From positions 59,565,578-59,629,577 of the forward strand of contig NC_079217.1 in assembly GCF_029633865.1 (NCBI RefSeq): DNA of 64,000 nucleotides, read 5' to 3'. The notes below the pieces were generated by a model. That model did not search any database and was not told the origin of the DNA. It worked only from the letters and a program-made list of their open reading frames with translations. A program made the translations under genes and the position numbers. How positions within the stretch are numbered: position 1 is the stretch's first letter; every line of letters begins with the position of its first letter. Below, piece after piece: positions 41,411-52,840 of the stretch. This DNA is from Lampris incognitus. Taxonomy: Eukaryota; Chordata; Actinopteri; Lampriformes; Lampridae.

Positions 41411-42024
41411 CTATATATGACACTTTTCATTTGCAAAGCGACACTCACTTGCCGTGTGGTTTCCCCTGCATCTGTAACACTGCCGTCGTTGTTCGTCCCT
41501 GGAACTACGCATGTTTACTTTGTGCACACTGATCTGGGCTGAACCTTGCTTCCCGCGTCCATCAGCACTAATGTCTACACATTTCCCTTGCAACTCACTG
41601 ACATCCTTCTTTGCATTCTCAATGGCTCGAGCAAGGGTCAATGCTTTCTCAAAGGTAAGCTCAGTCTCGGATAATAATCTACGCTGGATGCGGTCATCAT
41701 TCACGCCACAGACCAGCCTATCCCTTAGCATTTGCGTCAGATTGTCCCCGTAATTGCAATCCTGAGCTAACTTGCGCAACACCGCAACATAGTCCATAAG
41801 TGACTCACCCTCGTGCTTGTTCCTTGAATTAAATTTAAACCGCTGCACGATCTCTGATGGCCTGGGGTTCAAATGCGCTTTCAGTAAGTCCACAATGTCC
41901 TGGAACGATTTTTCCTCTGGCAAGACCGGGCTGTGGAGATTTCTCGTCAGACTGTAAGTTTGGGCACCTATGGAACTGAGCAAAATTGACTTTTTGATGG
42001 CTCCATCGGTAATCTTATCAGCAA

Positions 42025-42159
42025 TGTAAACTACTAATAAGACACGTTAGCCCCTAGCTAACGGGTCTGACCCTTTAGCCGAGCGGTTGGTGATGTCGCC
42101 TTGTGGTGCAGTACACCTCGTATCGAATCCCGCACCGGGCAAGAAAATAACCGGTTACA
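42025..42159 (+). repeat. TRIM left terminal repeat with tRNA-like core
   Basis: 135 bp. TAGCCGAGCGG at 42077-42087 fits the pol III A-box, and TATCGAATCCCG at 42121-42132 is a near B-box. GCCGAGCGGT equals the D-arm of the tRNA-Leu sequence I remember. Differs from the right repeat at three or four positions. Confidence 0.7.
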
Positions 42160-42160
42160 T

Positions 42161-42180
42161 TGGTGGCAGCGGTGGGATCC
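42161..42180 (+). other. TRIM primer binding site for tRNA-Leu
   Basis: TGGTGGCAGCGGTGGGATCC begins one base after the left terminal repeat. Its complement matches the remembered 3' end of vertebrate tRNA-Leu (ATCCCACCGCTGCCA plus CCA). Downstream, AGTCTCTTCGGAG (42203-42215 region) equals the tRNA-Leu variable-arm sequence. Confidence 0.65.
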
Positions 42181-42262
42181 GGAAGTGCGCAGATCCTCAG
42201 AAGTCTCTTCGGAGCGCGGGTATAACAAAGCGCGAGGGCGCGCTTCCGGGGAGGGGGACGAC

Positions 42263-42398
42263 TGTAAACTACTAATAAGACACGTTAGCCCCTAGCTAAC
42301 GGGTCTGACCCTTTAGCCGAGCGGTTAGTGATGTCGCCTTGTGGTGCAGTACACGTCGTATCGAATCCCGCACCGGGCAAAAAAAATAACCGGTTACA
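42263..42398 (+). repeat. TRIM right terminal repeat
   Basis: 136 bp, nearly identical to the left repeat, preceded by a purine-rich tract. One extra base in the A-run before ATAACCGGTTACA. Confidence 0.7.
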
Positions 42399-42602
42399 GC
42401 AATAAAAATGTCCCAAGATCTCCACATATTCCTCCCATGACTGCGACTCACTCTCAAAAGCAGCGACCGTTCCCACCGTCGCCATGTCCCGTCTCAGGTA
42501 GCGGTAGCCACGCGCTAGCTAGCCAACTTCACTCGGTGCTAAAACGTCCAGGAACACCGAATATCCTTGTTTTTCCAGGATTCCGTTTACCTCGTCGCCA
42601 GA

Positions 42603-44006: not shown

Positions 44007-44968
44007 TGTAACAGAGTTGAAAATGACCTCACTCAGATAAAGTGAATTCTTCCAAAATTTGTATTTTAACATGTTATTGTAATCCAATGCTTTTTGATGG
44101 TTTGTGTAAACCCCAGATGTTGTACCGCATTCACTAAGGTTAAATATGAGGCTGCGCGACTGTTTGTCTATTTACTTTCGCTTTGACACATTTTGGGCAT
44201 TTGCGCTATCCGTACCTTAGAGCTAGACCATCTCCGCTGGAGGTAAGCAGGCTTTGGGAGCGCTCCGTGAATAATTTGATATTTTAATAAATGAACACGT
44301 TTTTCTTTGCAAACTATGGGTTGGATATAAATGTATATAAGTTGTACTAACTAATGCTCTCGAAAAGTAACGATAGAAAGTGATTTGTAAGTGTTTTAAC
44401 CGAGTTAAAGTATAATTTTGGCGGCAACCACGCTGCGCTGTGCGTCATGGAGAGCATTGTTCTTATTGTGGTTTTTATGCTATTTTAGACTTGTATGCAG
44501 TCGCGTTGCAGCAGAAATCTTATGGATTGTTGTTTTATTTGTGAATGCAGGTACGTGATTTATGTATAATGTAAATGTGTAAGAACTTGGTTATGAATAT
44601 TGCAAGAGTCAAGAATTTCTATGTTAAAACTATACGATCACTCAGTGCGCTATGCCAGTGCTGTCTGTCCTTTTGTTTGGTTTGTTTTGTACTTTTGTTT
44701 ACACGGAGATTAATGAGTTGTGCATTTTGATTTCCATGTAAGTTTAGTATGCTATGCAACGCATGAGGTTAGCCAGGAGAAACATTGTTTGCTAGCTCAT
44801 GCACGAGACAGCTAGACCATCTCCGCTGGAGACTTGTATGCAGTCGCGTTGCAGCAGAAACCTCATGGATTGTTGTTTTATTTGTGAATGCAGGCAATAA
44901 AAGCCACTGTTAGGAACCCCTGGTCTGAATCTCTATCACGAACACCTGCACAAGTGAGGGTAGTTACA
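44007..44968 (+). repeat. 5' LTR (962 bp) with intron-containing block and spliced self-copy
   Basis: TGTAACAGAG ... TAGTTACA. Block 1: 22-base segment A (44221-44242), GT-AG intron-like sequence (44243-44488, GTAAGC ... CTATTTTAG), 62-base segment B (44489-44550), then GTACGTG. Block 2: A joined directly to B at 44810-44893, followed by AATAAA (44897). TATA-like GGATATAAATGTATATAAG lies at about 44320. Confidence 0.9.
44243..44488 (+). other. Intron-like segment inside the 5' LTR
   Basis: 246 bases beginning GTAAGC and ending TTTTTATGCTATTTTAG, exactly absent from the second A-B copy at 44810-44893. The right LTR has the same structure. Confidence 0.7.
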
Positions 44969-45351
44969 CTGGTGCCGTGACTTCTTCTGGATCAATTGGA
45001 TCAGCTCCGCAAGCAGATCGCCGAGGGAGCTGCGCTGCGCTGTCTTCCTGGAATGTGCAACGTGATTTTTCTGGTGATTCCGTATATGACCGCTAGGGGA
45101 CACTCTAACACTGCATTTAAGATATATCCATGGTAGTTTTGATACGAGGAAGTGTAACTACACTGTACATTGTCTAGCCATTTCTCTTTAATTTCAGTGT
45201 ACTATATTGCTATATTTAGAAATATTTTTCTCACATCACACTACAGTTTAGCATTCAGTATTTTTCAGGTGGTGTGACAGCAATTTTCTGCATTTGTCAT
45301 TTCTAGTTTTATTATTATTTCTTTTTCTAATTTTATGTTTCTAAAGGTATC
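44969..45351 (+). other. Primer site and untranslated leader of the young gypsy element
   Basis: Primer site TGGTGCCGTGAC at 44970-44981; I could not assign the tRNA. The rest is noncoding up to the gag ATG at 45352-45354. Confidence 0.6.
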
Positions 45352-46131
45352 ATGGCTGAGGGAAATAACAGTCAGGTCAATGGGTTTAAAGGCTTCTCCG
45401 TGAATAGGGGCAGGGGTGCTCCTTTTAATGGTCTGAATACTAACACATTGTCTAGTGGGTATGGAAGTGAGAGTGCAGGTGGTCTTCAAGAACATGTTAG
45501 TGATGTTTGGGACAGGGGGCATAGTGTGAGCCCGGGCTGGTCTCCTAGTGAACAGGTTTTGAGGGTGGATGCACAGACTTCTACTCCGGTGAATGATAGC
45601 ATTGCCATGCAACGCCTGACTGATATGGTAGGCCAACTGGGAGAGCAAATAGGTAACTCCATTGCAGCTAGACTTTTCTCTTCTGGACTTACTGATCGTA
45701 CTAATACACATGATACACCTTTGACTGACAAACCAGCGACTGTTCTGACTTCAGGCCCTACACAACATAACACAACGCCAGTAGTAGTTCATGTTAAGAC
45801 TGAACGTGAACCTGTGACTTTTAGGGGAAATAGTTCTGACAAGTACTCTGTTCAGGAATGGATAGCCATGACGAAAGCTCACCTTAGGAAACAGTCTTAC
45901 ACAACAGCTGAACAGGCGGATGAGATACAAGGAAGGCTTTTAGGAAAGGCAAGAGACATGGTCAAAGTAGCTCTGAGGAGTGATGACACACTTGATGTGA
46001 AGCAGAACCCAGATCTCATGTATGACATTCTAAAGCGATATTTCAGTCAGTCTTCATCATCACTTCCGTTGCAAGATTTTTACACCACACTGCCCAATCC
46101 AAAAGAAAATCCAGTCGACTACTGGATCTGA
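45352..46131 (+). pseudogene. gag: Gag N-terminal part, ended by an in-frame TGA
   Basis: Starts MAEGNNSQVNGFKGFSVNRG. The capsid segment includes VTFRGNSSDKYSVQEWIAMT and ends NPVDYWI before TGA at 46129-46131. The next frame continues in phase (LNKAADTADEGLHRQGRRME), so TGA probably replaced an arginine CGA. The stop lies within the capsid region, not at a gag-pol boundary. Confidence 0.85.
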
Positions 46132-49100
46132 CTAAACAAAGCAGCAGACACAGCTGATGAGGGACTGCACCGTCAGGGTAGGAGAATGGAGAACATAAGT
46201 GGAGAGGTGGCACAAATGTTCACGAAGCACTGCCCTGATCCGCAGCTTTCCTCAATTTTGAAATGCAAGCCTGTCAGTGAGTGGACCTCTAAAGACATCC
46301 AGCTCAGGATAGATGAATATCAAAGGGAATGGGGTGCGTCTGCAACATCTTACAGTGTCCCACAGCTGAAAAGTCACCCTGCAGCTGTGTTCGACAATGA
46401 TTCAAACACCTGCGCTCACTCTGATTCTCATCGGATGGACTCCCAGTCAACTTGTCCACCATGTTCTCATGCCACGTCTTTGTTTCAGACTCCCAGCTCC
46501 TGCTCAGACTCTGCATGTGTCCAGCAGAACGTCCAGCGACCACAGCATGTCCCGCCGCCACAGAATGCTCAGCAGCCTGATGATGGAGTCCTCGGCCGCA
46601 TGATGAGCATGCTTGAGAGAGTCTTGGCCAGGGTGGAGCCGCGCAATCCTGAGCGTAGCCAGAAACGCCCCAGCCCTTTCAGCGCACCGCCATGTAGAGT
46701 TTGTGGAGATGTTAATCACTCCACCTTGTTTCACTGCAAATCTGACCATCTCTGTTTCAAGTGTCTGGCCCCTGGTCACTCAAGGCAGCACTGTCCAACC
46801 CTAACTCAGCCCGGCTTCGGGAAACTAGCTGACCTGTATTCAGAGGGAGGCAATACAGGTCATAAAGAATCCTCCCACTCGCTAGACACCGATATTTTTG
46901 ATTCAACTTTTAATTTTGTCAATTTTTCTCAATTTCAGTCAACAAACGTTGTGTATCAAAACACTCAGACTGTGGGTGGCAGTGACAGCTTATTTTACGT
47001 ACCAGTGAAGGTGGGCAGCAAAGTGACTCTTGGGGGTATGCTAGATAGTGGCTCAATGGCATGTACAGTCAGTGATACTGCTATGCGTAACCTGCTCTCT
47101 GTTGGGGCAGTGTGTGAAGCAGAGAGATTCTCCACCAATGTGACTCTCATTGGTGTCGGTGGTCGACGAGTGCACCCGAAGTCAGCCTTTTACATTAACA
47201 TGGAAGTTAATGACTGCAAAATGATTGTGCCGATGATTGTAGTTGAAAGACAACATGATGACCTAATTATCGGAACCAATGTGATCAAACACATACTGTG
47301 TGAGTCAAAGAAGTGTAGTACGTACTGGACAGCAGTTTCTGCACCGTCCTCTACCGACACTGAAACCGAACATTTTCTCTCCATGCTAGCTGGCTTGCAT
47401 AGATGGGGCGCTGGTGAAATGCCTGACAAGATAGGCACAGTACGTTGCAACTCGGCCACTTGCCTTCAACCCGGCTGTGAATACCTTCTGTGGGGAAAGC
47501 TGCCAAAACTCACACATGTGTCTCCTGGTAGTGCGGTGATGACAGAGCCTACGTCAGCACGATCTGCACCCAAAGGACTGATGGTCGCCAGAGTTGTCAC
47601 ACCCCTGTGGGCAGATGGATGGGTTCCCTTGAAAGTGATGAATGTCTCTGAAAAGCCTTTGTTTTTGAGACGTAACGCTAAGCTTGCTGACCTGGTACCC
47701 TGTGTCGCTTTGGAAGATTTAGACCTAGTCAGTGGTCATCAGAGCGCTTCCACCATGCCTGCTACTCCTGTCTGTCCTGATGCAAGATGTGCTGGGGAGA
47801 ATCTAGAGTCCATTGGCCTGAGTGAGCTGGACATCAGCCTGTGTGATGCGTCATCGGACTGTAAAGACAAGTTGTCCAAACTTATTGTTCACTACCAGGA
47901 TGTCTTCTCACGCAACCACCTTGACTGCGGCAAAGCAGAAGAGTTTGTCCACAGAATCCACTTGATTGACCAAAAGCCATTCAGACTTCCTTTCAGACGT
48001 GTGCCACCGAGCCAGTATCAAAACCTACGTCAGGTCTTAAGTGAAATGGAAGAAAAAGAGATCATTCGAAAGTCAACAAGCGAGTATGCCTCACCATTAG
48101 TCCTTATCTGGAAGAAGAATGGTGATTTGCGTGTGTGTACTGACTTCAGGTGGCTGAACAACAGGACTTTGAAGGACGCTCACCCTCTGCCACATCAGGC
48201 CGATTGCTTGGCAGCACTTGGTGGCAATTCATTGTTCAGCACAATGGACTTGACTTCAGGATTTTATAACATGCCCTTACATGAGGATGACAGGAAGTAT
48301 TCAGCGTTCACTACACCTATGGGGCTTTACGAATACAACAGGCTGCCACAGGGGCTCTGTAACAGTCCAGGGAGTTTCATGAGAATGATGACTTCCATTT
48401 TTGGTGATCAAAATTATCTAAGTCTGTTGTGCTATTTAGAGGATATTTTGATTTTTGCTCCTGATGAAAGTTCTGCCCTTGCACGTCTTGAAATGGTGTT
48501 CAAAAGACTCCGTGCCCACAACTTGAAATTGGCACCTAAGAAATGCTACTTTTTGAGGAAGTCTGTCAAATTCCTTGGCCATATTGTTGACGAGCATGGA
48601 GTTTCGACTGACCCAGGCAAAGTTGAGAGCATAAGCAGTATGACTGTGACTGACTTGATGGACGCGGATGGAGTGACACCATCTGAGAAACGTGTGCGAT
48701 CTTTTCTTGGCATGCTAAATTTTTATCAGCACTTCATCCCAGGATACTCAGCCCTTGCGAAGCCCCTGTTCTCACTGCTGGCTGGTCAGAAACAGAAGAA
48801 AGGCCGAAAACCTAGGTGTGCTGTAGTGAGCCGCAGACTAAAATCAACCGACTGGACTACTGACCATGATAGGGCATTTGCTGAACTCAAACAGGCCCTC
48901 ATAGATTCCGTTGTTTTGGCCCACCCAGACTTTAGTCAACCGTTTTTGCTGTCTACGGACGCCTCGTTGGATGGCCTTGGGGCCGTTTTATCTCAAGTGC
49001 GTGAAGGTGACTCAGTGGCTAGACCAATTGCATTTGCTAGCAAGTCCTTAACTCGGTCACAGAAGAACTATCCAGCCCATCGATTAGCGTTTCTTGCACT

Positions 49101-51150
49101 GAAGTGGTCAGTTTGTGACAAGTTTAGCCACTGGTTGAAAGGCCATGACTTTACTGTGTGGACTGACAATAATCCATTGACTCATATTATGACTAAACTT
49201 AAACTTGACTGTTGTGAGCAGCGATGGGTGTCAAAATTAGCCAGTTACAATTTTGACATCAAATATGTGCCAGGCCCAAGAAATATTGTTGCTGACGCTC
49301 TCAGCCGTGTCCCTTTTTGCAAAAGTGTCGGTCGCAGACTGGTCAGTGAACCACTTCATGACCTCACCAGAGAAGCTGCTGTTTTGTCTGACACGGCTAT
49401 TCAACAGACCTTCAGAGAGTCAACCAACCAGCCTGTAATGGCAGAGAAGCAAACACGTCTTGTAGCCACAAATACCCAGTCCCTTCCTATGTCAGCTCAG
49501 TCTTTATCCACACAGGAAGTCTCTGCTGTTATCCAGTCACACACTGAATGGGCCTCTGGAGCAAAGACGCGTGCGACAGCCCTTGTGCGTCACCTACCCC
49601 AGCTCATTCCTGACGGTTTGCCCAGCCTGCCTGCCTTTACTGCTGGAGATCTCCGTGATGCACAATCTAGAGATAGTACGTTGTCTCGCATTCGTTTTTT
49701 TGTTGAGAGGTCTCGGAGACCATCCAGACGGGAAAGAGCACAGGAGTCGAGTCAAGTCCTGAGGCTGCTGAAACACTGGGAAAAGTTTGTTCTGAGTGAT
49801 GACGTCTTGTACAGAGTGTCACGTGATCAAATTTCAAAGACAAGACGCCATCAGTTTGTTGTTCCTGATTGTCTGAAGACTAAAGTCTTGAAAGGAGTGC
49901 ATGACAGTGCAGGTCATCAAGGTCAGTCAAGAACCCTGAGCATTGCCAGACAGAGATTTTTTTGGCTGCACATGGACAGAGATGTGAGAGAATACGTTCG
50001 TCATTGTCAGCGTTGTATAGTGAGCAAAATGGCCGAGCCAGTAGGAAGAGCTCCTCTTGAAAGTATTGTCACTTCCAGACCACTGCAACTTGTATGCATT
50101 GATTTCTGGTCAGCTGAAGATTCGCACAACAAATCTGTGGATGTTTTAGTAATTACCGACCATTTTACCAGACTGGCTCAGGCCTTTGCCTGCAGGGATC
50201 AATCAGCCAAACAAGTAGCGAAAGTCCTCTGGGAGAAGTATTTCTGCGTCTATGGATTCCCTGAGAGGATCCACAGTGACCAGGGTCCAAGCTTTGAAAG
50301 CGAGTTGATCGCTGAACTTCTACAGTTATCTGGTGTGCGAAAGTCCCATACTACTCCATACCACCCGATGGGAAATGGCAGCATCGAACGTTTTAATCGA
50401 ACGCTGGGCAATATGATCAGAGCTCTTCCCTCAGAATCAAAGCAAGACTGGCCCAGATGTTTACAAACTCTCACATTCATGTACAATTGCACTGCCCATG
50501 AGACAACAGGATATGCACCATTTTACCTGATGTTTGGAAGGGTGCCCCGTCTTCCAGTAGATATCCTGTTTGGAAACATCTTGACTGACCCTGATGTGAC
50601 CGACTTTGGCAGGTATGTCACGAAGCTGTCTGAGGACCTTAAGGAAGCCATGCTAATTGCTCAAGAGCATGTGACAAAGGAACAGAACAGACAGGCAAGA
50701 CTGTATAACAGGAAAGCGAAAGGACCGACAATTGAAATTGGAGACCGAGTGCTTGTGGCTAATAAGAAAGAGAGGGGAAAGAGAAAAGTTGCTGACCGAT
50801 GGGAGTCTATTGTTTACACTGTGACTGAGCTGAATCCCCAAACGCACACATATAAGATACAGGACACTGTCACAGGGCGTGAGCGGACTGTCCATCGTAA
50901 TCTACTTATGCTGGTGAATTTTCTTCCTATTCAAGATGTGCCACAGTCTTCTCAGTCTGGTCTCTCAATGTCCTCCGTCCAGTCCTCCGTCTCTGTCCAT
51001 TCCATGGCCTCAGGTCAAGCTACGTCAGAGCACACTCAGACTCAAGTGTCCGTTCAGCAGGATGAGACTCAATGTGGAGTTGATGATGTGCACAGTCTTG
51101 TGAGCGTCCCTGAACCTGAAAATTACTCAGATATCCTGCCTGCGTCTTAG
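46132..51150 (+). CDS. pol: Gag C-terminus and Pol (PR-RT-RNaseH-IN) of the young gypsy element
   Basis: More than 1650 codons open after the gag TGA. A Cys/His-rich nucleocapsid region (CRVCGDVNHSTLFHC and CFKCLAPGHSRQHC) lies near 46690-46800. Protease: GMLDSGSMACTVSD (47036). RT: WKKNGDLRVCTDFRWLNN, FSTMDLTSGFYNMPLHEDDR, but the catalytic block reads LLCYLEDILIF (48427-48460), with Glu where YxDD has its first Asp. RNase [17 protein letters not shown]. Integrase: HQGQSRTLSIARQRFFW with CQRCIVSK, then VCIDFWSAED, RIHSDQGPSFE and NGSIERFNRTLGN. A GPY-like C-terminal region follows. Confidence 0.9.
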   Translation, partial: LNKAADTADEGLHRQGRRMENISGEVAQMFTKHCPDPQLSSILKCKPVSEWTSKDIQLRIDEYQREWGASATSYSVPQLKSHPAAVFDNDSNTCAHSDSHRMDSQSTCPPCSHATSLFQTPSSCSDSACVQQNVQRPQHVPPPQNAQQPDDGVLGRMMSMLERVLARVEPRNPERSQKRPSPFSAPPCRVCGDVNHSTLFHCKSDHLCFKCLAPGHSRQHCPTLTQPGFGKLADLYSEGGNTGHKESSHSLDTDIFDSTFNFVNFSQFQSTNVVYQNTQTVGGSDSLFYVPVKVGSKVTLGGMLDSGSMACTVSDTAMRNLLSVGAVCEAERFSTNVTLIGVGGRRVHPKSAFYINMEVNDCKMIVPMIVVERQHDDLIIGTNVIKHILCESKKCSTYWTAVSAPSSTDTETEHFLSMLAGLHRWGAGEMPDKIGTVRCNSATCLQPGCEYLLWGKLPKLTHVSPGSAVMTEPTSARSAPKGLMVARVVTPLWADGWVPLKVMNVSEKPLFLRRNAKLADLVPCVALEDLDLVSGHQSASTMPATPVCPDARCAGENLESIGLSELDISLCDASSDCKDKLSKLIVHYQDVFSRNHLDCGKAEEFVHRIHLIDQKPFRLPFRRVPPSQYQNLRQVLSEMEEKEIIRKSTSEYASPLVLIWKKNGDLRVCTDFRWLNNRTLKDAHPLPHQADCLAALGGNSLFSTMDLTSGFYNMPLHEDDRKYSAFTTPMGLYEYNRLPQGLCNSPGSFMRMMTSIFGDQNYLSLLCYLEDILIFAPDESSALARLEMVFKRLRAHNLKLAPKKCYFLRKSVKFLGHIVDEHGVSTDPGKVESISSMTVTDLMDADGVTPSEKRVRSFLGMLNFYQHFIPGYSALAKPLFSLLAGQKQKKGRKPRCAVVSRRLKSTDWTTDHDRAFAELKQALIDSVVLAHPDFSQPFLLSTDASLDGLGAVLSQVREGDSVARPIAFASKSLTRSQKNYPAHRLAFLALKWSVCDKFSHWLKGHDFTVWTDNNPLTHIMTKLKLDCCEQRWVSKLASYNFDIKYVPGPRNIVADALSRVPFCKSVGRRLVSEPLHDLTREAAVLSDTAIQQTFRESTNQPVMAEKQTRLVATNTQSLPMSAQSLSTQEVSAVIQSHTEWASGAKTRATALVRHLPQLIPDGLPSLPAFTAGDLRDAQSRDSTLSRIRFFVERSRRPSRRERAQESSQVLRLLKHWEKFVLSDDVLYRVSRDQISKTRRHQFVVPDCLKTKVLKGVHDSAGHQGQSRTLSIARQRFFWLHMDRDVREYVRHCQRCIVSKMAEPVGRAPLESIVTSRPLQLVCIDFWSAEDSHNKSVDVLVITDHFTRLAQAFACRDQSAKQVAKVLWEKYFCVYGFPERIHSDQGPSFESELIAELLQLSGVRKSHTTPYHPMGNGSIERFNRTLGNMIRALPSESKQDWPRCLQTLTFMYNCTAHETTGYAPFYLMFGRVPRLPVDILFGNILTDPDVTDFGRYVTKLSEDLKEAMLIAQEHVTKEQNRQARLYNRKAKGPTIEIGDRVLVANKKERGKRKVADRWESIVYTVTELNPQTHTYKIQDTVTGRERTVHRNLLMLVNFLPIQDVPQSSQSGLSMSSVQSSVSVHSMASGQATSEHTQTQVSVQQDETQCGVDDVHSLVSVPEPENYSDILPAS

Positions 51151-51579
51151 GAGAGAACCAGAGAATGAGTCAGTCACCTGAACAACACCCCAAGTCAACA
51201 GTCTCCTGAAGGAGGTGCTAGGGAGCCTTCTGCTGACTTTACTAACGACGTGTTGACTGACAAGGTCCCAGATTCACACTCGGAACTCTCTCACGCCTCA
51301 CTCACTGATGACACTGTTGATAGGGATGACACCTCGACTGTTAGTGGCCATCACACAGTTTTGTCTACAGTTACTTCTGACTCTGTAAGTGACGCTGCAC
51401 ATACTGTTGCACCCACTGAACTGCCTGAGTCTGCACCACACCGCACTACACGTCTGGGTTGTGTCGTTCGACCAGTTAACAGGCTCCTTTACACGATAGC
51501 TGGACGAGATGTCACTAGACGACTGCGGCAGAATGTTCAGACTGTATGCAGCGCTGTAGTTCAAGCTCTTAGGGCATAA
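51151..51579 (+). pseudogene. C-terminal extension of Pol beyond two stops
   Basis: In frame with pol but separated by TAG (51148) and TGA (about 51166). The open part from 51250 is Ser/Thr/Asp-rich and ends HRTTRLGCVVRPVNRLLYT through VVQALRA. In relatives such Arg-rich tails follow integrase, so the true protein may have ended here. Confidence 0.5.
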
Positions 51580-51878
51580 GTCTCTTTGTTTTTTCTTTTT
51601 TTGCAGATCTTTCTAATGTCCTTAGAAGTGCGGTACTAGGTGAACACTTATACCTACTTCTATGTGTATTGACAGTTTTTAGGCAAGTGTAGAATGTGTA
51701 AGGCATTCTATAACTGGTGGTTGGTTGGAGAGTTTTTGACGTCGCTCTCTGTCCACCACATCCTTAAAGGATACTTATAGAGTCGGTCTTCTTGTGTATA
51801 GTCCCATGACACCAGATGAATCATAGCTATAGTTTGCGAACATGTGTATAATTTTGTCCAGAATTCAGTGGGGGTGGG

Positions 51879-52840
51879 TGTAACAGAGTTGAAAATGACC
51901 TCACTCAGATAAAGTGAATTCTCCCAAAATTTGTATTTTAGCATGTTATTGTAATCCAATGCTTTTTGATGGTTTGTGTAAACCCCAGATGTTGTACCGC
52001 ATTCACTAAGGTTAAATATGAGGCTGCGCGACTGTTTGTCTATTTACTTTCGCTTTGACACATTTTGGGCATTTGCGCTATCCGTACCTTAGAGCTAGAC
52101 CATCTCCGCTGGAGGTAAGCAGGCTTTGGGAGCGCTCCGTGAATAATTTGATATTTTAATAAATGAACACGTTTTTCTTTGCAAACTATGGGTTGGATAT
52201 AAATGTATATAAGTTGTACTAACTAATGCTCTCGAAAAGTAACGATAGAAAGTGATTTGTAAGTGTTTTAACCGAGTTAAAGTATAATTTTGGCGGCAAC
52301 CACGCTGCGCTGTGCGTCATGGAGAGCATTGTTCTTATTGTGGTTTTTATGCTATTTTAGACTTGTATGCAGTCGCGTTGCAGCAGAAATCTCATGGATT
52401 GTTGTTTTATTTGTGAATGCAGGTACGTGGTTTATGTATAATGTAAATGTGTAAGAACTTGGTTATGAATATTGCAAGAGTCAAGAATTTCTATGTTAAA
52501 ACTATACGATCACTCAGTGCGCTATGCCAGTGCTGTCTGTCCTTTTGTTTGGTTTGTTTTGTACTTTTGTTTACACGGAGATTAATGAGTTGTGCATTTT
52601 GATTTCCATGTAAGTTTAGTATGCTATGCAACGCATGAGGTTAGCCAGGAGAAACATTGTTTGCTAGCTCATGCACGAGACAGCTAGACCATCTCCGCTG
52701 GAGACTTGTATGCAGTCGCGTTGCAGCAGAAACCTCATGGATTGTTGTTTTATTTGTGAATGCAGGCAATAAAAGCCACTGTTAGGAACCCCTGGTCTGA
52801 ATCTCTATCACGAACACCTGCACAAGTGAGGGTAGTTACA
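51879..52840 (+). repeat. 3' LTR (962 bp) of the young gypsy element
   Basis: Same length and layout as the 5' LTR. Differences noted: TTCTCCC for TTCTTCC, TTTAGC for TTTAAC, AATCTCATGG for AATCTTATGG, ACGTGGTTT for ACGTGATTT. Intron-like part at about 52115-52360, spliced copy at about 52682-52765. Confidence 0.92.

Follow-up and report, generated by a model that had tools for sequence, protein, structure and literature searches.

A Helenus-like TRIM, its probable gypsy helper and the plus-strand products that one genome appears to preserve

How is a non-coding element of 374 bp copied and moved, and how much of the answer can be read from the genome in which it sits? The element lies at 42025-42398 of the window, by which we mean the whole 64,000-nucleotide stretch of DNA that was analysed. 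We argue that it is a TRIM of the Helenus type (a TRIMp3), mobilised by gypsy, primed by tRNA-Leu and carrying what we infer to be a pol III promoter, and we give this reading as a whole a probability of roughly 0.85.

In the window, the TRIM is an inserted unit of 374 bp bounded by GCAA on both sides; the two TG...CA direct repeats of 135 and 136 bp, the 103-base interior and the GCAA duplication described in an earlier note on this DNA are all borne out:

42021..42024, no strand: left copy of the target-site duplication, GCAA, 4 bp
42025..42159, plus strand: 5' LTR, 135 bp, TG...CA, borders alike in 53 full-element rows (end base changed in a few)
42076..42087, plus strand: A-box-like TAGCCGAGCGGT in the 5' LTR, 11/12 against the consensus
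42120..42130, plus strand: B-box-like GTATCGAATCC in the 5' LTR, 9/11, alternative acceptor in some palindromic insertions
42160..42262, plus strand: interior, 103 bp, non-coding
42161..42178, plus strand: primer binding site, 18/18 nt complementary to tRNA-Leu(AAG) plus CCA
42179..42249, plus strand: CCGGAAGTGCGC ... GCGCGCTTCCGG, outer stem of the predicted interior fold
42202..42214, plus strand: 13-nt tRNA-Leu variable-arm word, with a template switch at the same word in L129
42248..42262, plus strand: polypurine tract region GGGGAGGGGGACGAC, assigned by position and composition
42263..42398, plus strand: 3' LTR, 136 bp
42314..42325, plus strand: A-box-like site in the 3' LTR
42358..42368, plus strand: B-box-like site in the 3' LTR
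42399..42402, no strand: right copy of the target-site duplication, GCAA
41411..42001, minus strand: gag-like frame belonging to an older gypsy element, the target of the TRIM insertion, no Pfam family

A pair similar to the outer stem is also present in the interior of a related family (fam2), and the fold of the TRIM did not go beyond composition when compared with shuffles (z -0.38 for the interior, -1.12 for the LTR). The earlier note had placed the element inside a gypsy gag: on the minus strand, a single gag-like frame can be read on both sides of the TRIM, but Pfam gave 0 families for the 196-aa gag-like piece beside it, and the label “gag” is therefore a reading by eye. Elsewhere in the window, 1.6 kb from the TRIM, lies a gypsy element (44007-52178). 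Its repeats, of 300 bp each, are 99% alike, and its pol-like frame, of 1654 aa, has RVT_1, RNase H and rve. A helper within the window was considered and rejected, since a search there for another primer site, of one type or the other, found none.

The window's own genome (1.48 Gb) was searched for further copies, and what is integrated there is the same 374-bp LTR retroelement unit with 4-bp duplications. The search gave at least 42 matches to the unit (40 of 1,219 candidates scored), and the normal junction of LTR, primer site and interior recurs at 2,581 places with up to 3 mismatches (control 0). Among the loci read, 37 of 53 full-element rows carry exact 4-bp duplications, for which the chance probability is about 1e-76; six of the 16 rows without one are array units or run on into another primer site, and L071, also among the 16, has a duplication of 5 bp. 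Among single LTRs, 10 of 26 rows (9 distinct) have a 4-bp duplication, like that of solo LTRs, and several of the remaining rows are LTRs that are cut, palindromic or part of an array. Within an element, 5' and 3' LTR diverge by a median of 4.4%. Where duplications are exact, their third base is A in 31/37 full TRIMs, 8/9 solo LTRs and 8/9 gypsy-LTR insertions, a target bias that the TRIM and the gypsy have in common. At L086, L092 and L100, three or more LTRs share interiors in tandem arrays, as reported for LTR-11_DR.

Might each repeat simply be a tRNA-derived SINE, two copies of which happen to lie side by side? There are A and B boxes in each, and some single copies do exist. But the TG...CA borders are constant, the 103-bp interior holds a primer site and a polypurine tract, one 4-bp duplication surrounds the whole pair in those 37 rows, there are 2,581 junctions of like kind, and the duplications round single copies resemble those of solo LTRs (10/26 rows, 9 distinct). 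A tRNA-derived SINE is marked by duplications of variable length and by lacking LTRs, a primer site and a polypurine tract, and the element was found to differ on each point. Since borders and duplications are constant across the copies read, we reject the SINE pair, which we hold to be extremely improbable. The earlier note had named a free SINE inserted twice, or boundaries that vary between copies, as what would refute it; neither a free SINE nor varying borders appeared among the loci read.

What primes the element? Its primer site, and the antisense tracts found beside that site in integrated copies, are those of tRNA-Leu. The site at 42161-42178 matches, at 18/18 nt, the 3' end plus CCA of L126, a tRNA-Leu(AAG) gene in this genome, which upholds the complementarity that the earlier note had proposed; the match ends one base short of tRNA position 58 (its last base is position 59), and within the window it is the sole match at up to 3 mismatches, with 0.04 expected. 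The interior also contains a 13-nt word, AGTCTCTTCGGAG (42202-42214), that matches the variable arm of human tRNA-Leu, and a word that long arose in 6 of 20,000 interior shuffles, which makes chance unlikely. It is the variable-arm sequence of the earlier note, though both tRNA-Leu genes read (L126 and L127) lack the exact word, which is present in the tRNA fragment L128.

Antisense tRNA-Leu runs on past the primer site at seven places, five of which were read (all but C6:3619588 and C135:55572). The L119 tract stops at canonical position 38, immediately before G37; in L130, it reaches one base beyond that endpoint, within homology; in L109, it ends after 26 nt; in L129, it stops at the variable-arm word and gives way to TRIM interior in reverse complement; and in L026, it makes up the loop between two inverted LTRs. 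(Antisense tRNA-Leu 3' halves with no recognisable LTR alongside were seen at L128 and L131.) We presume that the tRNA-Leu of the source genome bears m1A58 and m1G37. For HIV-1, the available part of PMC13191261 describes m1A58 as the major stop of plus-strand strong-stop DNA and 37 as a minor one. Judged from the antisense tracts that adjoin the primer site, priming of the TRIM by tRNA-Leu is strongly supported.

Which element, then, is the helper? We met a gypsy LTR by reading 20 of the 145 places at which the usual C after the primer site is missing. Nine of these were ordinary TRIM or fam3 interiors with a changed base or other small change (L106, L107, L111, L112, L115, L117, L118, L121, L124), three were B-box palindromes (L108, L113, L114), and the others, in pairs, were a gypsy leader (L116, L125), a gypsy LTR ahead of a TRIM interior (L110, L120), tRNA read-through (L109, L119) and unrelated sequence past the primer site (L122, L123). 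The gypsy LTR (255 bp in two copies measured) has AATAAA and ends in CTCGGTTACA, after which comes the TRIM's own primer site; the two elements share the LTR end GGTTACA and all 18 nt of the primer site. RVT_1, RNase H, H2C2 and rve domains were found in one gypsy copy, L139, which is broken and was read in pieces only.

This gypsy LTR stands ahead of its own leader at 71 places (control 0) and ahead of the TRIM interior at 202 (reversed-pattern control 0). Twelve of the 202 were read, picked from listed plus-strand places without mismatch, and 10 of them are hybrids joined at the primer site, running from gypsy 5' LTR through primer site, TRIM interior and TRIM 3' LTR to flank; of the other two, L141 is cut short within the TRIM LTR, and L149 proved to be a palindrome of the gypsy, with an exact duplication. 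Duplications are exact in eight of the ten hybrids and one base off in two (L143, L148). Two further places with a gypsy LTR and a TRIM interior, L137 and L136 (both on the reverse strand), proved to be composites and not clean hybrids: L137 reads gypsy LTR, primer site, TRIM interior, TRIM LTR, second primer site, gypsy leader, and L136 is alike but has other sequence instead of the leader, so that in these the tRNA-like LTR sits within the gypsy leader. The reverse hybrid, a TRIM LTR ahead of a gypsy leader, occurs at 10 places, at least six of which lie 192-239 bp from a hybrid place (compared with 100 of the 202 places listed) and are therefore parts of composite gypsy elements of the L137 kind. 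In one composite gypsy copy, a transposase-like frame (L138:3-1484, minus strand), as read by eye, interrupts pol.

A single hybrid element that had multiplied, with no strand transfer at each place, would have two points in its favour: 202 places are many, and composite gypsy elements with TRIM sequence in the leader do exist (the six or more places just described). Against it, the ten hybrids read have different flanks and all end past the TRIM LTR, and an RNA with a gypsy R at one end and a TRIM R at the other should fail in the first strand transfer, so that such hybrids should not copy themselves. We consider one multiplied hybrid rather improbable. Intermolecular plus-strand transfer is the simplest reading of the gypsy/TRIM hybrids, their excess in one direction would fit completion of the TRIM's short minus strand first, and the gypsy family that shares LTR end and primer site is the probable helper of the TRIM.

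The second class of aberrant insertion is palindromic, with U3 facing outward at both ends. An exact 4-bp duplication spans 9 of the 11 TRIM palindromes that lie outside arrays and have both outer ends read, and all are U3-outward: CAAC at L108+L134, GTAG at L114, TTAG at L132, CAAG at L133, TGTG at C14:31688403, ATAC at L016, CACA at L018, TATG at L024 and TAAT at L026. The two without an exact duplication are L113+L135 (ATAC vs ATTA) and L129 (AAAC vs CAAC). Could these be two separate insertions, head to head? Neighbouring opposite elements with unmatched flanks can indeed be found, at L010, L014 and L100. Separate insertions would not be expected to share one exact duplication in 9/11 U3-outward cases and in none of the three U5-outward rows (2 loci), and we think this explanation very unlikely. 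Rows that are U3-outward number at least 15 among those listed, seven with an exact duplication and the other eight being neighbours or inner ends.

Where does the strand turn back? At 13 places, with up to 3 mismatches, the primer site is joined directly to the B box of the LTR in reverse complement (GGGAT followed by TCGATACGG; control 0). Five of them were read through (L108, L113, L114, L132, L133) and eight at their presumed ends only. Among the eight, C14 is confirmed as a palindrome with both ends, C5 continues into a reverse gypsy LTR, C13:3287920 and C13:30743967 lie in arrays, C2:145344053 has only a fam2-type reverse end, and C24, C9:3486093 and C135 (3/13) are unconfirmed as palindromes from the pieces fetched. 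Four palindromes also turned up among 30 loci picked by LTR similarity alone (L009-L038), and in these the switch points vary (the B box in L016, a nearby 5-nt word in L018, the tRNA-Leu loop in L026, another junction in L024), which makes the B box a recurrent acceptor but one route among several. Fold-back of plus-strand strong-stop DNA at its 3' end would explain the U3-outward orientation: this DNA begins with the U3 terminus at its 5' end, and its last bases, ...GTGGGAT, can pair with the ATCCC of the B box.

Besides acting as a promoter, the tRNA mimicry of the LTR may have a second effect: the 3' end of strong-stop DNA, being a copy of the primer's T arm, would fold back on its own LTR, or land on another plus strand, prime itself and give palindromic cDNA with U3 at both ends, which integrase would insert; our opinion on this is evenly balanced. 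If it is true, inverted insertions able to form hairpins would be an inherent by-product of every retroelement with a tRNA-type LTR promoter, and pairs of hybrid 5' and 3' LTRs would serve as a general genomic assay of which helper moves which TRIM. Among the papers listed by literature searches, none was evidently about palindromic TRIMs or about B-box strand transfer, which does not show that there is none.

How tRNA-like is the LTR itself? Scored against the A- and B-box consensus, A box TAGCCGAGCGGT (11/12) and B box GTATCGAATCC (9/11) have a start-to-start spacing of 44, and scores and spacing together were reached by 0/1000 shuffles of the 5' LTR and 3/1000 of the 3' LTR, in keeping with the A box and near B box seen earlier. 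The same spacing, with A>=10 and B>=8, is found in 50 of 53 5' LTRs (43 or 45 in the other three). The Helenus box A pattern, TRGCY...YGG, fits the TRIM; its box B has GTATC vs the conserved Helenus GGTTC, at spacing 44. The earlier note went further and heard in the LTRs an echo of tRNA-Leu in particular, which the analysis does not support. In local alignment, the LTR scored 11.0 with tRNA-Leu (32/300 shuffles as good), 11.0 with Thr (13/300) and 11.5 with both tRNA-Ser and tRNA-Asp (6/300 each), with Val and Glu also among the reference sequences. With a score no higher than that of Ser, Asp or Thr, tRNA-Leu is rejected as the source of the LTR, and of the phrase “primed by the tRNA it mimics,” the antisense tracts bear out the priming and the alignment gives no support to the mimicry. 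Rfam and ARAGORN called no tRNA in the LTR, and a tRNA or 5S gene within it is rejected for want of a match to either. On alignment, then, the LTR is generically and weakly tRNA-like, not Leu-like.

Two further LTR families have the same core round both boxes and different outer parts. The fam2 TRIM (L030:3-406; L065:2520-2860; L031:2684-3042, reverse), with an LTR of ~152 bp, has a near-perfect B box, GGTTCGCGTCC, better than that of the window's family (fam1), and a stronger alignment (0/300 shuffles as good, vs tRNA-Asp); its primer site presumably fits tRNA-Leu(CAA). The fam3 family (L106, L113+L135, L038:2781-2905) has, in L106 and L113, a tRNA-Leu primer site identical to that of fam1; its core in L038 is a single LTR whose boxes were matched by 34/1000 shuffles and are not clearly beyond chance.

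Does this core act as a promoter, or is the element an ordinary TRIM transcribed by pol II, in which the boxes are decayed remnants or chance? The imperfect B box and the weak tRNA alignment would suit the latter, as would conservation that in the boxes (A 0.988, B 0.986) barely exceeds that of the rest of the LTR (0.974 for the whole 5' LTR, 0.988 for the stretch past the B box), although conservation of the boxes is uninformative on function because the copies are near-identical. It is harder to square with box scores and spacing held in 50/53 5' LTRs, with a core common to two families of differing outer parts (one of them with the near-perfect box) and with a sense strand lacking TTTT in 53/53 TRIM copies, where the gypsy LTR has four. 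We judge transcription by pol II doubtful, though a serious contender. The kept core, the boxes and the missing TTTT fit a pol III promoter and do not prove one; against it, the element has no pol III terminator that would account for the 3' end of the TRIM RNA.

Put together, the life of such an element might run as follows. The tRNA-like LTR would recruit RNA polymerase III to make a short RNA, which gypsy Gag would package alongside gypsy RNA. Gypsy reverse transcriptase would then make the minus strand from tRNA-Leu and the plus strand from the polypurine tract; plus-strand strong-stop DNA would end at m1A58 of the primer and transfer to the primer site complementary to it. The product would then be inserted by integrase supplied in trans by the gypsy. 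Each aberrant class could be a departure from this scheme. Gypsy strong-stop DNA (LTR plus primer site) may anneal to the primer-site complement on a TRIM minus strand in the same particle, and transfer to that other molecule would yield a gypsy/TRIM hybrid; a 3' end returning to a plus strand, partly at the tRNA-like B box, would yield palindromes, possibly by fold-back priming; and read-through of m1A58 would leave antisense tRNA-Leu in the insertion.

How does this compare with what is known? Helenus, in the available part of the 2024 description by Kojima (PMC10886601), which gives the term TRIMp3, comprises animal TRIMs with tRNA-like LTRs and 4-bp duplications, primed in vertebrates by tRNA-His, -Leu or -Lys, with mobilisation by gypsy proposed and with no complementarity found between the tRNA-like LTR sequence and the element's own primer site; its zebrafish member LTR-11_DR has thousands of copies and tandem arrays. 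The window's TRIM shares with Helenus, so described, a short non-coding LTR structure below 1000 bp (here 374 bp), a primer site and polypurine tract, 4-bp duplications (37/53 exact), a tRNA-Leu primer (18/18), tandem arrays, thousands of copies and gypsy mobilisation, which is here inferred from hybrids with 8/10 exact duplications. The likeness is less clear in the LTR sequence, where box A fits but box B departs from the conserved Helenus form and the tRNA alignment of this family is weak. It differs in that the available text of PMC10886601 names no fish helper, where hybrids here support gypsy, and mentions no palindromes, tRNA read-through copies or gypsy/TRIM hybrids. We file the element as Helenus-like, the comparison with LTR-11_DR being one of described features and not of sequence. 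The earlier note's idea of a tRNA-based animal counterpart to Cassandra is right in so far as the LTR of this TRIM resembles a tRNA-type promoter, but such elements were already published in 2024, as Helenus (PMC10886601). Ajax, a nemertean TRIM, follows the TRIMp3 logic with a tRNA-Leu primer but, in the same partial source, is 5S-derived and has 5-bp duplications (PMC10886601).

Cassandra, the plant TRIM, likewise has an LTR that resembles a pol III promoter but carries 5S rRNA sequence, which the LTR here does not match (no 5S match at E<=1). In rice, Dasheng and RIRE2 form a non-autonomous/autonomous pair for which hybrid elements are reportedly evidence. For Wilma with Sabrina and WHAM, in wheat, the partner was likewise inferred from a shared primer site and shared LTR termini, according to the available part of PMC9744471; unlike the wheat and rice pairs, ours joins a TRIMp3 to a gypsy, with the junction at a common primer site. 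The stop before m1A58 and the minor stop at 37 recall HIV-1, where, in the part of PMC13191261 at hand, these are biochemical products and not, as here, integrated genomic copies. The helper of a non-autonomous element is hard to determine without experimental data (PMC9744471, as available) and is usually assigned by similarity; here, integrated hybrid molecules indicate the probable helper of a TRIMp3, and plus-strand products of three sorts (normal, mis-transferred and over-extended) survive in one genome. This lets genome sequence show how a pol III-type TRIM is reverse-transcribed, by a test that can be repeated in any genome with Helenus. The kind of element has been known since 2024; what is probably new, beside Helenus and the other known systems, is the helper that we propose for it and its natural strand-transfer products.
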